From NCBI GenBank assembly GCA_023663185.1, contig JAMPHY010000013.1, positions 1 to 64,000 on the forward strand: a stretch of 64,000 nucleotides of DNA, written 5' to 3'. The translations under genes and the position numbers were made by a program. The notes under the pieces were generated by a model. That model was not told the DNA's origin. It worked only from the letters and a program-made list of their open reading frames with translations, and made no database searches. Below are positions 1-5,314 of this stretch, piece after piece (the first letter of the stretch is position 1; each line of letters begins with the position of its first letter). This stretch comes from Clostridiales bacterium. Lineage in GTDB: Bacteria > Bacillota > Clostridia > Lachnospirales > Lachnospiraceae.

Positions 1-349
1 TTAATTTTTCTTTATTATTACTAACAAAAGAAGAATAATTGCTTCCCCACAGTACTTGATAAATCTTTTCTCTTGTTTTCCACAAAATATGCCGCCCCAC
101 GCGATCGTACAACTCCGTCCGAAGCGCGCTCAGCATGCCTATTACTAAAAAAAGCACCACAAAAACCACAACATATCCTATAAAAAAAGGTACGCTCTTC
201 TGGGCTTCCGTTTGGTCAATCAGCCATTCCATGTAGAAAGGAAGTGCAGATTCTAAGCCTAAAAGCAGAATGATAACAAATATACATTTGCACAGTAGTT
301 TTTTATCTACAGTAAACATGAGTTTAACGACTTGAAAATAGTTTTTCAT
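1..349 (-). CDS. ABC transporter, N-terminal membrane part (partial)
   Basis: The frame is open from an ATG at 347-349 to the window edge, so only about 116 N-terminal residues are visible. They contain two strong hydrophobic stretches (about residues 20-38 and 52-75), joined by a short polar loop with the motif FYMEWLIDQ. A basic cytoplasmic stretch follows (RTELYDRVGRHILWKTREK). This is the usual start of the membrane domain of an ABC exporter of the peptide or multidrug type. No ATPase domain is in view. It lies 52 bases downstream of the radical SAM gene on the same strand and is probably its operon partner, so export of a modified peptide is the likely role. That role is inferred from context. 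Confidence 0.7.
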   Translation of the reverse strand, partial: MKNYFQVVKLMFTVDKKLLCKCIFVIILLLGLESALPFYMEWLIDQTEAQKSVPFFIGYVVVFVVLFLVIGMLSALRTELYDRVGRHILWKTREKIYQVLWGSNYSSFVSNNKEKL

Positions 350-401
350 TACTTGTACCTCGTATTATAAAATTTGCACATTTCTATATCGCAATAAGAT
401 A

Positions 402-1667
402 TTAATCATCATATAGATTTTTTATTACCATACACGTATACGGATTAGCATTTTTACAGTCTCCCGTAAGACGCAATGCTTCTACCCTGCAATTTTTAGC
501 CCCACAACTGTGTTTTTCTTTACATTTTTTGCATTGCCGTGTTTTCTTGATGTATTCCTTTCTAAATTCTTTGATAGCATCATTAGGATTGTTCCATATA
601 GCAGACAGTGACGCATCAATAGTATTACCTATAATGAATACTTCTTCCTCTGCAAGCGGACACATTTTCAAAACGCCATCTACGGTTAAAACCCCATTAG
701 TCACTCCGCCTTGACAACGATGACGCTTACCTTGAAATAAGGAACACTTATTAACGGGAAAATACTCCCTAAACAGTTCAGGATATCGTTCTTTCAATCT
801 TGGAATCTCTTCATAGCCAAAAGAAAAATCTGAATTATTAACAGGTGTTACAATAAATAATTTATGCTCATATTTAGGAAACAAATCCATAACAAGCTGT
901 TTTATATGAATGACATTGTCAACATTCTGTCTCATTACAGCGGTCTCAATAAAGACATCAATATTAGAGTATTTTTTTAGTTTTGTTAATGTTGTTATTG
1001 TATTCTCGAATGCAGTCTCGCGTCCGCGAATATTATCATGTACATGTTCAAAACCATCAAGACTGATTCCCATGGCATAATGGTACTTCTTAGTAACCTC
1101 AGCAAACTGAATAATTTTTTCTGTCAAAAATCCGTTGGTGTAAATGCATACCAAAAAGCCATTCTCCAAAAAATAAGTAGCAATCCTTTCAAAATCAGGA
1201 TTCAAAAAACTCTCTCCCCCAGACAAGCGAACCTGCACTGTATGAAGCATATCCAATTCAGGCTTAAGCCTAACAATATCTCCAAAAGAATACATCTTCT
1301 TTTGGGAAGGTTGTCCAAACCTTCCATAGCAATGGATACAGTTTAGATTACACGCATTTGTTAACTCAATCACAAGGGAACGCAAAGGAAATTTTCCCTT
1401 AAACAGTCCCAATACATTTTTGTTATATCTCGGCACATCACTGTCTATAATTATTCTTTTGTCATATAGGTCCCTAATAATAGACTGACTTATTAGCCGA
1501 GACAATTTTTCTTCAGTGTTTATTTTGCCATCATTAATTTCTTGAAGTAATTTGTAAATTACTTCATTGACATCCCATATCTTATTACTTTCAGTTGGTA
1601 TAACAACACTATATATTTTCTTTCCATAATATTTACTTATCCGCAAATTCGGATTTACTATAAGCAT
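402..1667 (-). CDS. Radical SAM/SPASM peptide-modifying enzyme with PqqD-like N-terminus
   Basis: This 421-residue protein carries the radical SAM cluster motif CNLNCIHCYG near residue 108. A C-terminal SPASM-type cysteine set follows (CQGG, then MCPLAEE, then CKKCKEKHSCGAKNC) for auxiliary iron-sulfur clusters. The first 80 or so residues look like a PqqD/RRE peptide-recognition domain, as in maturases of ribosomal peptides. I start it at the ATG at 1665-1667, because AAAGGGA sits seven bases upstream. The frame continues 32 codons further up but has no ribosome site there. The peptide gene 1962-2135 lies upstream and the ABC exporter downstream on the same strand. The natural substrate may be that peptide; the type of cross-link is unknown. 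Confidence 0.85.
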   Translation of the reverse strand: MLIVNPNLRISKYYGKKIYSVVIPTESNKIWDVNEVIYKLLQEINDGKINTEEKLSRLISQSIIRDLYDKRIIIDSDVPRYNKNVLGLFKGKFPLRSLVIELTNACNLNCIHCYGRFGQPSQKKMYSFGDIVRLKPELDMLHTVQVRLSGGESFLNPDFERIATYFLENGFLVCIYTNGFLTEKIIQFAEVTKKYHYAMGISLDGFEHVHDNIRGRETAFENTITTLTKLKKYSNIDVFIETAVMRQNVDNVIHIKQLVMDLFPKYEHKLFIVTPVNNSDFSFGYEEIPRLKERYPELFREYFPVNKCSLFQGKRHRCQGGVTNGVLTVDGVLKMCPLAEEEVFIIGNTIDASLSAIWNNPNDAIKEFRKEYIKKTRQCKKCKEKHSCGAKNCRVEALRLTGDCKNANPYTCMVIKNLYDD

Positions 1668-1961
1668 GGTAATTCCCTTTCTCTGCCGGTACGCTATTAC
1701 CTGAATCCGTAAGACTATGTATCTCAACACATTGCCAACTGCATATTTAAACAGTATTAGCATTGAAATTACTATCTTTGGTAAAAAAGAGCCATTTTAG
1801 ATTTTCCCCGCCAGATCCGGTATAAGAAATATTTTTCCACGCGGAGTTGGTGCAAACATTCTTCCCTTAATGGAGCGTGATGACATCAAGGCTCTTGTCC
1901 TTCTTTTACCCATCACTCTTGGTGCAGATTGTTCTTGACGATGAGGAAATATCGGTTTAGT

Positions 1962-2135
1962 TTACATATTATTGCCTCTTTTCATTTCAGCCCAGCGTTC
2001 GCCTTCCTGACTTACACCATCCGTCAGACAGACAGGGACTTCAAAATCATACATTCCTAATGTAATAGACTTACCCAGCCCAAATCTTCCAAAATTGCAT
2101 AACACCTCAATACTTTTCTTTTTTATATTTTTCAT
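1962..2135 (-). CDS. Small precursor-like peptide (AgrD-like or RiPP precursor)
   Basis: The peptide has 57 residues starting at the ATG at 2133-2135, with AGAGAGG six to seven bases upstream. A longer frame to 2186 lacks a ribosome site. It opens with a basic amphipathic stretch (MKNIKKKSIEVLCNFGRFG). A segment GKSITLGMYDFEVPVCL follows, then a charged tail. The run of small and hydrophobic residues, Tyr, acid and E-x-P resembles the autoinducer core and its flank in AgrD-type peptides, with Ser or Thr in place of the usual Cys. The two cysteines and the adjacent radical SAM gene also fit a modified-peptide precursor. Both readings are inference. It sits 255 bases downstream of the LytTR gene, across a terminator. 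Confidence 0.6.
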   Translation of the reverse strand: MKNIKKKSIEVLCNFGRFGLGKSITLGMYDFEVPVCLTDGVSQEGERWAEMKRGNNM

Positions 2136-2260
2136 TTTGAACCTCTCTTTCAATCTTTCATTTGATAATGCTACTCTATCATGCACTATAGCATCTCATA
2201 CTTCTTTTTCTTAAAATATACTTTCTTTGCGGTTAACGTATTATTTTTCAATTATTTTGA

Positions 2261-2269
2261 ACGTTTAAG
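2261..2269 (+). promoter_or_regulatory. Possible single LytTR half-site
   Basis: The nonamer ACGTTTAAG is identical to one half of the direct repeat between the regulator gene and agrB. It lies about 125 bases upstream of the small-peptide start. A second half at the expected 21-base offset is only a weak match (ACTTGAACG at 2282). Related AACGTATT sequences occur at 2235 and 2287. This is suggestive of LytTR control of the peptide gene and no more. Confidence 0.3.
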
Positions 2270-2318
2270 AAATATAAAACTACTTGAACGTATTTAGTAT
2301 ATGTAATGCACATAAATT

Positions 2319-2366
2319 ATAAGGAAGGCAATCCGAAAAATGCATTTGACGAATCGCCTTCCTTAT
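2319..2366. terminator. Hairpin terminator downstream of the LytTR gene
   Basis: ATAAGGAAGGC at 2319-2329 pairs with GCCTTCCTTAT at 2356-2366 around a 26-base loop. It ends the LytTR transcript on the minus strand. It also separates that gene from the small-peptide gene, which therefore needs its own promoter in 2136-2318. Confidence 0.6.
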
Positions 2367-2390
2367 GTTATAAACCTGCGTATATTGATA

Positions 2391-3122
2391 TCATATTTGA
2401 TTTTTTACTTGCCCTAGTAGCCTATGGGATATAGGACATTCAGCGCGATTTTTCATAATAATAAGCTTATCAGCATACAAAACTTCTGCAACGTTCTTCT
2501 TGTTCACTAAATACGCTCTATGGCATCGAATAAATTCTTCCCCAACTTCATCTTCTATATCTTTCATTTTACCAAAAAATTCCATTGATTTATTTATTGT
2601 ATGGACAATAAGCTTATGTTCATTAACCGATGTTTCAAAAAACATAATATCATTGTAGGCTAATGTTATTTTCCTTCCACCCCTTGTAATTGTAATCGTT
2701 TTTCCACTACCTCTTGAAATCTTTGCATATTTTTGATTTACATCTTCCATACACTCGCATATACGATGCTGAAGTTCTCGTGGCTCATCTTTCAAAATAA
2801 AATCCAATGCCTCTACCTTATATTGAAACGTTATGTATGACATTTCTGAATGAGATGTTACAAATACTATAAATCCTCTTGGATCATATTCTCTTATTTC
2901 TTTAGCAAGCACTAGCCCGTTCTTATTTGACTTTAAATCGATATCCAAAAAATAAAGCCCTGTATTTTTTGATTGCTTCAACTGCTCAATTAATTCTTCT
3001 GGTTTATCAGTGCTTATTCGTAACTTCATATCATATTCCTGAATCACTATAGCTGACTTAACATAATGAACTAACATATCCCGCTGTTCTTTAATATCCT
3101 CACAAATATATACATCTATCAT
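2391..3122 (-). CDS. LytTR-type response regulator (AgrA/VirR-like)
   Basis: This 243-residue protein has an N-terminal receiver domain (MIDVYICEDIKEQRD) with the phospho-acceptor aspartate in the segment LYFLDIDLKSNKNGL. The C-terminal half is a LytTR DNA-binding domain, recognised by ITLAYNDIMFFETSVNEHK and later FIRCHRAYLVNKKNV. Regulators of this type bind paired nine-base direct repeats; such a pair lies just upstream at 3139-3168. It is divergent from agrB and near a GHKL kinase, as in agr-type circuits. It probably controls agrB and may also control the peptide and radical SAM genes; that is inferred. Confidence 0.9.
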   Translation of the reverse strand: MIDVYICEDIKEQRDMLVHYVKSAIVIQEYDMKLRISTDKPEELIEQLKQSKNTGLYFLDIDLKSNKNGLVLAKEIREYDPRGFIVFVTSHSEMSYITFQYKVEALDFILKDEPRELQHRICECMEDVNQKYAKISRGSGKTITITRGGRKITLAYNDIMFFETSVNEHKLIVHTINKSMEFFGKMKDIEDEVGEEFIRCHRAYLVNKKNVAEVLYADKLIIMKNRAECPISHRLLGQVKNQI

Positions 3123-3138
3123 ATTTAAATACTCCCTT

Positions 3139-3168
3139 ACGCTTAAGTTATTTTATCCTACGTTTAAG
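3139..3168 (+). promoter_or_regulatory. Probable LytTR operator, paired direct repeat
   Basis: ACGCTTAAG at 3139-3147 and ACGTTTAAG at 3160-3168 are near-identical nonamers spaced 21 bases start to start. That is the two-helical-turn spacing known for AgrA/LytTR sites. The pair lies in the divergent space between the regulator gene (start 3122) and agrB (start 3237). It could therefore control both. Confidence 0.6.
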
Positions 3169-3236
3169 AACTAATAAATTATTTTCAAATAATTACTTTA
3201 TAATATATACCAAACTATAAAGGATGGTATTATTGT

Positions 3237-3812
3237 ATGAAAAAAATATTCAATAATGTTGCCAAAAAAATAATAAATATACTTGATGAAGATCATTCGT
3301 GTACAGAAATAGAATATCTGCAAATGCTTTATGGAATTCAAAACATCTTATATAATGTTGTTATTACCGGACTCATATTGTTTCTATCATATATTACAGA
3401 AACCTTTATTGAAACTCTTTTATTATTCACATTTTTTGGTATGCTACGTATCATTGCCGGAGGATATCATTGTAACAGTATCGAAAAATGTTTAACTACT
3501 ACCACTCTAATCATGGTTGGAGGCGGAAAATTTGTACAATCAATTCAAATAAACCTTCCTATATGCATCATTATTTGTATATTAGTAAATACAGTATTTT
3601 TTTCTTATATACCAAAAGGCACGCATAACAACCCCTATTCCCCAGAATATAGTATTAAACAACATAAACGCTTAAAATTAGTTTCCATCATCTTAACCAT
3701 AATTTCTATTTTCTCAAATTCCATCTTGCGCGGAGCAATTATTTACTCTATGTCTGTTGTTACAATTTTACTTTTTCCTACCATTAAACATAAATCTCCA
3801 ATACCTGAGTAA
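3237..3812 (+). CDS. agrB: AgrB-like autoinducer-processing membrane peptidase
   Basis: The protein has 191 residues. It shows the AgrB signature GMLRIIAGGYHCNSIEKC, with the catalytic pair His78 and Cys85 seven residues apart. Several membrane segments surround it (about 37-55, 60-72, 105-123, 146-160 and 164-182). AgrB cleaves the tail of an AgrD peptide and helps form its thiolactone or lactone ring at the membrane. No AgrD gene follows directly. Instead the 3' end overlaps the convergent kinase gene by 29 bases. The nearest peptide candidate is at 1962-2135 on the other strand. AGGATGG sits ten bases before the ATG. Confidence 0.9.
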   Translation: MKKIFNNVAKKIINILDEDHSCTEIEYLQMLYGIQNILYNVVITGLILFLSYITETFIETLLLFTFFGMLRIIAGGYHCNSIEKCLTTTTLIMVGGGKFVQSIQINLPICIIICILVNTVFFSYIPKGTHNNPYSPEYSIKQHKRLKLVSIILTIISIFSNSILRGAIIYSMSVVTILLFPTIKHKSPIPE

Positions 3813-5067
3813 AATATCCCGCCTCATATTCTGTATCCATAATTACATTATCGTAATCATTAATAATGGTCTTTATGTTATACAAGCCGGCTCCTCGCCG
3901 TTCCCCTTTGGAGCTAATGCCTATACTTCCAAGCTTATTGTAGTCTATATCGTGTTTTACATATGTATTTTTTATAACAAATGTTATATCACTATCCATT
4001 TTCATTATGCTAAAACATATACTAGGATTCTCACATTCCTGACAGGCTTCTATTGCATTATCTAACAAAATTCCCATTATTCTTACCAAATCAACTCCCT
4101 TCATATTAATCTCCTCAATTTTTTCGGTTATTTCAAGACTTACTTCTATATTAAGCTCTAAAGCATAATTTATTTTAACAAAAATTAGGCTTTTCAGTTC
4201 TACAATATCCAAATTATGCAATTTAGATATGGCATCATTTGCTTTTATAAGCTGTTTACTAATGGGAAATATCTGCTCATCATAATATCTTTTCAAGCCT
4301 TCCATATCATTTCCCTCAATATAACCTGCCATGCTCACCATGATATTTGCGTAGTCATGCTTAAAGACTCTGAGATTTTGGTAAAGTTCTTCAATTTGAG
4401 ACATATATTCCTGAAGATTATCATATGAATTTTGCTTCAATATTATTTTAGCATTAGTATCATATTCTTTAACGATTGTAGTCACCATTGAAAATGTTAA
4501 AAGAAAATACCCTGTATACAATATTATGCTGCTAAAAAGAACCGATGATGATGAACCTACCTGTTCAGCTACAGCAATATGCATAACAAAAATAATCATA
4601 CATAACATCAAATCCGTTCCAAGAATTGCTAAAATCCTCGGAGATAACATCAATGTTTTTCTTTTTGTTAATTTTACTGTCTTGCTGGACATAAACCGAC
4701 ATATTACAATAAAAATTGGATAATCTACAATCATATAAATAGGCCAATGATTGCTAACATTCAATCCTATAATATTCCAAATAAAATGAGTTAAGTTATC
4801 TACGATGACCAATAAAGTATACGAAAATACTATTAAGAATACATTTACCAACCAATCCTCTCGCTTCAGCCACACTATATACAAAATCAATATAATAAAC
4901 ATTGGTATAACAAATAAACTGCCAATTATATTACTAACAAATGCTATATTGACAACAAGTACAATAGTAATAACTATGTTTTGAATAATATTCAATCGAA
5001 AAGTCAAACAGCTATTAAATAATAATAAGTATGTAATAATACTCATTATTACAATCTGTATTTTCAT
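3784..5067 (-). CDS. AgrC-type GHKL sensor histidine kinase
   Basis: The protein has 427 residues. The first 200 or so form about six membrane helices, as in AgrC-type peptide sensors. A coiled segment leads to the phospho-acceptor motif LRVFKHDYANI, then the GHKL ATPase with the N-box GILLDNAIEAC and the G-box GERRGAGLYNI. It is the evident partner of the LytTR regulator at 2391. It is convergent with agrB, overlapping it by 29 bases, which is unlike the usual agrBDCA order. The gene starts 16 bases after the end of a short malQ-derived frame, so a captured malQ promoter may drive it. Confidence 0.88.
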   Translation of the reverse strand: MKIQIVIMSIITYLLLFNSCLTFRLNIIQNIVITIVLVVNIAFVSNIIGSLFVIPMFIILILYIVWLKREDWLVNVFLIVFSYTLLVIVDNLTHFIWNIIGLNVSNHWPIYMIVDYPIFIVICRFMSSKTVKLTKRKTLMLSPRILAILGTDLMLCMIIFVMHIAVAEQVGSSSSVLFSSIILYTGYFLLTFSMVTTIVKEYDTNAKIILKQNSYDNLQEYMSQIEELYQNLRVFKHDYANIMVSMAGYIEGNDMEGLKRYYDEQIFPISKQLIKANDAISKLHNLDIVELKSLIFVKINYALELNIEVSLEITEKIEEINMKGVDLVRIMGILLDNAIEACQECENPSICFSIMKMDSDITFVIKNTYVKHDIDYNKLGSIGISSKGERRGAGLYNIKTIINDYDNVIMDTEYEAGYFTQVLEIYV

Positions 5068-5083: not shown

Positions 5084-5185
5084 TCATTTATAAACTTTGG
5101 AAAGACATCCCCTAGTTTGATTTTCTTGTATTTTAATCTCAGACGGAATACTTGAAACAGGTAATAAAACTCCGCTTTTTCTCAT
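5084..5185 (-). pseudogene. malQ: Remnant of the 5' end of malQ (4-alpha-glucanotransferase)
   Basis: A 33-codon frame with a good ribosome site (GGGGG nine bases upstream) begins MRKSGVLLPVSSIPSE, which is the family-typical start of 4-alpha-glucanotransferase. The similarity then stops, the frame runs into unrelated residues and ends at 5084-5086. I read it as the broken start of malQ at the right edge of the agr-like island. It now lies directly ahead of the kinase gene. Recognition of the first 16 residues is strong; the breakage mechanism is not visible. Confidence 0.6.
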
Positions 5186-5314
5186 TACTATGTACCCCCT
5201 TTGATAAATTCAGTTTACAAGATTTCATTCCTAATTACAAGCAGTACATTCAACTATCTTACATTAATATGACTCAAACTTCACAATTATATAAGCATTA
5301 TTTTTAAAAAATAC

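Follow-up and report, generated by a model that had tools for sequence, protein, structure and literature searches.

Quorum-sensing circuits of the Agr type have been described in Clostridium next to genes for modifying enzymes of ribosomally synthesized and post-translationally modified peptides (RiPPs). In the agrBDCA-CA_C0082 locus of Clostridium acetobutylicum, expression of CA_C0082 is Agr-controlled, the LanM-like protein is an Agr effector that is dispensable for synthesis of the active signal, and some CA_C0082 homologs sit in full lanthipeptide clusters (PMC10301443). Radical S-adenosylmethionine (SAM) enzymes have also been tied to peptide signaling, and Rgg/SHP-controlled radical SAM RiPPs (RaS-RiPPs) are known in streptococci, namely streptide and streptosactin (PMC8326336, PMC8172795), together with further products under Rgg/SHP quorum sensing, including tryglysin (PMC13361665, PMC8092268). 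For ranthipeptides derived from SCIFF, a role in the quorum sensing of clostridia has been claimed (Chen 2020, via PMC8326336). Here we analyze a 64,000-nucleotide stretch from a Clostridiales bacterium of the family Lachnospiraceae (assembly GCA_023663185.1, contig JAMPHY010000013.1, positions 1 to 64,000; the whole stretch is the window), at the left end of which genes of an Agr circuit stand beside a cassette for a radical SAM/SPASM peptide maturase and an ATP-binding cassette (ABC) exporter. We consider it probable, on the sequence evidence given below, that a radical SAM RiPP island gated by Agr was acquired horizontally and inserted here at the malQ 5' end.

The known kind to which this locus belongs is most likely that of the Agr-linked RiPP clusters of LanM type, of which the combination of Agr with a radical SAM enzyme would be a new variant. 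As in the Agr-linked lanthipeptide synthetase loci of Clostridium, an Agr circuit adjoins a RiPP-modification gene; those loci encode a LanM-type enzyme and keep agrBD together, whereas the island encodes a radical SAM enzyme, and its candidate agrD stands apart from agrB as the leading gene of the modification unit. The likeness to the Rgg/SHP RaS-RiPPs is that peptide quorum sensing drives, or here would drive, a radical SAM RiPP. In those streptococcal systems the signal and the product are separate peptides, and a linear SHP is received by an intracellular Rgg receptor; the island, in contrast, uses membrane AgrB and AgrC with a LytTR-type AgrA. The SCIFF ranthipeptides are comparable as radical SAM peptides tied to signaling; the island differs in the two Cys of its precursor, rather than six, and in its physical linkage to agr genes. 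Sactisynthases of the SkfB/5wgg type (5wgg is presumably CteB) resemble the island enzyme in being among its best PDB profile matches, which include SkfB, PqqE, and 5wgg, in the SPASM C-terminus, and in having a Cys-containing precursor. Compared with them, the island precursor is short and has two Cys, the island enzyme reaches the cut-off of no NCBIfam model among the 25 matches listed of 71, and its chemistry is predicted. Among the literature matches listed, from a search in which subscription papers were largely outside scope, we found no Agr-controlled radical SAM RiPP.

An insertion at malQ

The window begins at base 1 of its contig (C4), in a genome of 3.83 Mb and 54 contigs. Read leftwards on the minus strand, the locus consists of an AgrC-like GHKL sensor kinase (3784..5067), an AgrA-like LytTR response regulator (2391..3122), a 57-amino acid (aa) open reading frame (ORF; 1962..2135), a radical SAM/SPASM peptide maturase of 421 aa (402..1667), and a cut ABC exporter gene (2..349), while an AgrB-like peptidase is encoded on the plus strand between agrA and agrC (3237..3812). 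The GC content of this part of the island is 31.9%, whereas 108 overlapping segments of the same length from the rest of the 64 kb span 37.5–44.2%.

The insertion point is marked by a 33-aa malQ-start remnant (5084..5185, minus strand), in which the start codon and first ~15 codons of malQ run into island sequence; the names malQ, HAD, and YycJ used here are our presumption from the look of the sequences. At the right edge of the island, positions 5141..5252 repeat, directly and with 5 mismatches over 112 bp, positions 334-445 of contig C37 (L087), the 5' region of the intact malQ, such that both junctions carry the repeat. In a genome of the same genus (G007), malQ directly follows the HAD gene that is on the right in the window, a neighborhood seen in 4 of the 10 same-genus loci inspected; here, the HAD side retains the malQ upstream region and ~15 codons, and the intact malQ is on C37. 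Most simply, a single island was inserted at the malQ start; we estimate its length at roughly 6–7 kb, with the missing middle of the ABC gene sized from locus L006 of genome G779. The block is probably foreign DNA, horizontally acquired by a Lachnospiraceae-type genome. The island, as far as it is sequenced, showed no integrase-like gene. Derivation from a phage or a plasmid was considered and dropped, as AgrB had zero matches in the phage collection, the radical SAM enzyme and AgrC had distant matches only in the plasmid collection, and of two viral-contig scans one was empty and the other gave three weak matches to the radical SAM enzyme.

Genes of the Agr circuit and the cassette

The gene content that the initial annotation had read from the letters is borne out, including AgrB with its His/Cys pair, the GHKL kinase, the LytTR regulator, the 57-residue peptide, and the radical SAM/SPASM enzyme. 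AgrB (PF04647, E 2.7e-26) carries the motif GGYHCNSIEKC, with His and Cys 7 residues apart. The AgrC-like kinase (PF14501, E 7.5e-20) has 5 hydrophobic segments over threshold and the H-box FKHDYAN, and the AgrA-like regulator is matched by PF04397 (E 6e-20). Both domain matches exceed the Pfam cut-offs, and the NCBIfam matches fall below theirs (NF046015 AgrC, 187 bits, cut-off 500; NF046049 AgrA, 227 bits, cut-off 400). The operon order agrBDCA is not present, since agrC and agrA share a strand and agrB is opposite; gene order differs among members of the family. The convergence of agrB with the kinase gene had been listed as part of an arrangement unlike agrBDCA, yet it is not peculiar, as the same layout occurs in the second agr locus of this genome (on contig C54) and in genomes G530 and G515. 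The C54 locus (L001:1495-3424) has its own agrD, the ring region of which (..GTFSHFLFGEPDFPVED) contains Ser and no Cys. In G530 (L032:8992-16530), where the agrA-agrB-agrC layout is like that of the window, agrD is divergent from agrC; a gene for a DUF2712 secreted protein comes next and then, as judged by eye, genes of ABC type, a bacteriocin-like arrangement. G515 fits the Agr-LanM pattern, with two LanM genes, agrB, agrC, and at least one exporter of the C39 ABC type, beside a similar candidate; an AgrD-like 54-aa ORF abuts a LanM gene there (L033:9486-12091).

The radical SAM enzyme matches PF04055 (E 1e-17) and, for the SPASM domain, PF13186 (E 7.5e-8). For the PqqD-like domain also attributed to it, the evidence is no more than suggestive: in the N-terminal 98 aa, Pfam matches PqqD and nothing else, at E 0.09 and below cut-off, and the N-termini of the homologs in genomes G771 and G778 have no PqqD match. 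The ABC exporter proposed in the initial annotation is present, albeit as its first 116 codons only, because the contig starts at window base 1. A full-length homolog in L006 has 534 aa and no C39 peptidase match, and no leader protease was seen in the cassette.

A probable separate precursor peptide

The initial annotation had suggested extending the locus leftward for a further precursor gene. Contig C37 begins within the 3' end of an ABC gene of this kind, after which come a ribosome site, an ORF of 40 aa with two Cys, a hairpin (z -6.9), and malQ. The ORF (C37:135-257) reads MKKLINTISVKLSSRLGDLGQMIVSASGGDICKRVGGSGC and terminates in ..SASGGDICKRVGGSGC. By synteny, C37 appears to hold the other end of the island, and the 40-aa ORF would then be the precursor of the cassette. 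In G779, a homologous leader (MRKLINTILVEL.., read as MRKLINTILVELSQFRGLSLAVSA up to the contig end) follows the ABC gene in L006, and another contig of that genome begins with a homologous core (..VSASGGQVCKSVGGRGC, read as RKVSASGGQVCKSVGGRGC); the two pieces may be parts of one gene or belong to two copies. Against the 40-aa ORF, 0 of 5,000 shuffles scored as well for either piece. A short Cys-containing precursor thus appears to be conserved with the maturase on C37, across the assembly gap, and in G779. Just upstream of the radical SAM-ABC pair, G771 has a 46-aa ORF and G778 a 37-aa ORF, each with two C-terminal Cys, and these are candidate precursors by position and Cys only.

Several points count against this assignment. 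The similarity of the G771 and G778 ORFs to the 40-aa ORF gives no proof of kinship, with 813 and 96 of 5,000 shuffles, respectively, scoring as well. The assembly lacks the middle of the ABC gene, and a second 5' part of this gene, without the radical SAM gene, is found on contig C21 (C21:1-354, L029; 97% identity over 354 bp); for these two reasons, the link between C4 and C37, and with it the assignment of C37 to this ABC copy, is one of synteny and not of continuous sequence. The C21 copy starts 12 bp past a YycJ-like metallohydrolase gene, and homology begins almost exactly at the start codon.

The 57-aa ORF as a candidate agrD

As noted in the initial annotation, no agrD follows agrB; however, the 57-aa ORF may be a displaced agrD. 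Preceded by AGAGAGG, it is probably the first gene of the radical SAM transcription unit, 294 bp upstream of the maturase gene with no terminator-like site listed between them. Displacement of agrD is not confined to this locus: among 47 agr locus entries, agrD was beside agrB in 31 and away from it in 5, 10 had no agrD above 10 bits, and 1 had no called agrB. These entries include places fetched twice (L015/L032, L017/L033, and L019/L061), and the 10 without agrD include L015 and L017, which are short versions, and L001 (the C54 locus), in which an agrD can be plainly recognized by eye. In the AgrB tree, the window protein belongs to a supported set (97/89) of 8 rows, with G530, G515, G090, G101, G112, G549, and G576, and in five of these seven companions (G530, G515, G090, G101, and G112) agrD lies apart from agrB.

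On a model of 27 AgrDs the 57-aa ORF scores 6.1 bits, the highest of the small ORFs in the window, a value reached by 2 of 1,840 scored shuffles (2,000 made). Among 957 small ORFs scored of 1,141, five reach it: one is unrelated, and the other four, two of which belong to the training set, are AgrDs or AgrD-like ORFs next to agr genes. The ORF aligns gap-free to the AgrD-like ORF of G515 (KSITLGMYDFEVPVCL versus KSAIFCMHEVEKPECL; 98 of 5,000 shuffles reach the score), and P-x-C-L is common to it and three of the five displaced AgrDs of its AgrB set. P-x-C-L is found in 9 of 804 small ORFs and 8 of 5,000 shuffles, and E-x-P-x-C-L in 1 of 804 and 2 of 5,000, counts that overstate significance because the motif was picked after viewing the sequences.

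A number of results speak against the assignment. The curated AgrD model TIGR04223 does not match the ORF, and the NCBIfam AgrD model fails on the clear AgrD of C54 too. The general model is not decisive, because a G779 peptide without a nearby agrB outscores the 57-aa ORF (14.0 versus 6.1 bits) and the clear AgrD of C54 gets only 1.7 bits. In pairwise AgrD tests, 98, 109, and 26 of 5,000 shuffles reach the score, and the ORF ranks second of 379 small ORFs of the window against the AgrDs of both G515 and G530 (tied for G530). With sister-clade AgrD models of varied membership, 49, 82, 1, and 4 of 5,000 shuffles, and 9, 15, 0, and 0 of 804 small ORFs, score at least as high. The tree program warned of long branches for the rows of the window and G515. 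Finally, the ORF has no Cys at the usual ring position, and ring closure by Ser or Thr would therefore be needed. With statistics this moderate and uneven, we regard it as reasonably likely that the 57-aa ORF encodes a displaced, divergent AgrD, the signal precursor. The 33-aa ORF upstream of agrC, which outscores the 57-aa ORF by one point against the G515 AgrD, was dropped as a signal peptide since it is the malQ start.

Candidate regulatory sites and the proposed circuit

A hairpin after agrA (2319..2366, minus strand; -25.3 kcal/mol, z -6.9) separates agrA from the genes that follow; therefore, the 57-aa ORF, the radical SAM gene, and the ABC gene probably form a unit of their own. Between agrA and agrB lies a candidate AgrA-type site (3139..3168, plus strand), a direct repeat ACGCTTAAG-N12-ACGTTTAAG with 0 mismatches to a search pattern that was derived from the same site. 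In Staphylococcus aureus, AgrA sites are laid out as 9-bp repeats with 12-bp spacing. Direct repeats for AgrA at the agr promoter have been described (PMC4227749). Upstream of the 57-aa ORF, an inverted pair of the 9-mer ACGYTYAAG with a 13-bp spacer (2261..2291) is a further candidate AgrA/LytTR site. ACGYTYAAG occurs 8 times in 64 kb versus 1.83 expected, twice between agrA and agrB, twice as the inverted pair, and four times elsewhere. This count, too, overstates significance because the motif was picked after viewing the sequences, and since these sites, chiefly the first, were themselves the source of the motif, at most the pair before the 57-aa ORF is independent support. A search for an inverted site with an N12 spacer ahead of the 57-aa ORF found none, and a promoter consensus scan was uninformative (33 matches versus 32.9 in shuffles). 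The link between Agr and radical SAM genes put forward in the initial annotation is upheld as a physical and probably a regulatory one, by the single low-GC insertion and by LytTR-type repeats before both agrB and the 57-aa/radical SAM unit.

In the circuit that we propose, AgrB would convert the AgrD-like peptide of 57 aa into a cyclic signal that is secreted and sensed by AgrC, and phosphorylated AgrA would bind the ACGYTYAAG repeats, turning on agrB in a positive feedback as well as the unit comprising the 57-aa ORF, the radical SAM gene, the ABC gene, and the 40-aa precursor gene. The radical SAM enzyme is predicted to modify the 40-aa precursor, probably at its two C-terminal Cys and with links of the thioether type, and the ABC protein would export the modified peptide. 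The product seems to be a different peptide from the signal and may be made only at dense population.

The cassette in other genomes

A pattern scan of an 84,980-genome collection, which detects close relatives only, gave one find, L006 of G779, with an ABC gene and a radical SAM enzyme 89% identical to that of the window. The radical SAM enzyme was recovered at E 1e-35 from 3 of 397 sampled genomes of the family (this one, G771, and G778) and from 1 of 392 of the order (this one), at E 1e-20 from 1 of 116 relatives (this one), and at E 1e-25 from 2 of 391 of the class (this one and a weak match in G230); these samples overlap, and the family, order, and class scans scored ≤4 candidates per genome. 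When 348 ORFs from the window, C37, C21, and the cassette loci were searched with an AgrB profile built on 42 sequences, AgrB was found in the window only. In G779, G771, and G778, the radical SAM-ABC pair is present without agrB on the stretches examined. Since the AgrB profile places agr beside the cassette in one of four loci, the recurring unit is the short two-Cys ORF with the radical SAM-ABC pair.

In L006 the radical SAM gene has as neighbors a helix-turn-helix (HTH) regulator and a small ORF, with a transposase fragment between them and the radical SAM gene. The HTH regulator, of ~600 aa, adjoins a 56-aa secreted-looking ORF (L006:1063-3074), and diverged fragments of this HTH region lie beside the second precursor core (L090:895-1176). 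Possibly, the HTH protein and the 56-aa ORF serve this cassette as another peptide-signaling regulator. The only regulator seen in the island, within its sequenced parts, is the LytTR-type AgrA, and Rgg/SHP is not present next to the radical SAM gene.

Alternative explanations

The agr genes and the cassette could be mere neighbors, with agr having arrived or persisting independently and exerting no control over the cassette. Some observations weigh in this direction and against an Agr-gated island: agr accompanies the cassette in one of the four loci, the pairing is known from one genome, and the GC contents of the two halves are 29.4% and 34.3%; the hairpin between agrA and the next unit would also fit. 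The malQ repeats nevertheless enclose both halves in a single insertion, and two further copies of the agrB 9-mer stand ahead of the 57-aa ORF, so we hold mere adjacency to be unlikely. Alternatively, the 57-aa ORF may be no gene, with AgrD encoded elsewhere or the circuit a relic. The ORF has no match outside this genome, either among 116 relatives at E 0.01 or among the collected plasmids, the C54 locus owns an agrD that could serve, and the slot beside agrC that agrD occupies in G530 and G515 is where the malQ sequence begins here. Against this stand a good ribosome site, a position that fits the AgrB clade, and the top score in the window on the general AgrD model, which leave this explanation doubtful.

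The initial annotation had gone further and proposed that one peptide, the same or a linked one, is both signal and substrate of the radical chemistry. The 57-aa peptide would then be modified by the radical SAM enzyme, perhaps also being processed by AgrB, and the signal itself would be radical-modified. The two Cys of the 57-aa ORF and its place ahead of the radical SAM gene, with no terminator-like site listed in between, speak for such a substrate, the AgrD-like ORF of G515 abuts a LanM gene likewise, and the short ORFs of G771 and G778 are also upstream of the radical SAM gene. The cassette, however, has its own short two-Cys ORF, here by synteny and in G779, with candidates in G771 and G778, and the 57-aa ORF shows no resemblance to five precursor pieces (2,236 to 4,463 of 5,000 shuffles reach its scores). 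Moreover, the Agr-linked LanM-like protein of C. acetobutylicum is reported to be unneeded for an active signal (PMC10301443). Because the cassette has a precursor of its own, conserved in leader and core, we dropped the 57-aa ORF as the cassette precursor and consider a radical-modified signal of this kind improbable. What was found is, largely, a separate agrD candidate and a separate precursor, together with radical SAM homologs lacking agrB, all of which the initial annotation had named as speaking against its proposal. It is very improbable that the enzyme both modifies the 57-aa peptide, before or after AgrB, to a radical-crosslinked autoinducer and matures the 40-aa product, in which case one enzyme would serve signal and product.

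Implications

If the Agr-gated island is real, a membrane Agr circuit instead of an intracellular Rgg/SHP pair would gate a radical SAM RiPP within a compact unit, and a candidate agrD would head the modification operon. The locus and its relatives suggest that Lachnospiraceae harbor a small family of radical SAM peptides, the cassette of which stands beside differing regulators.

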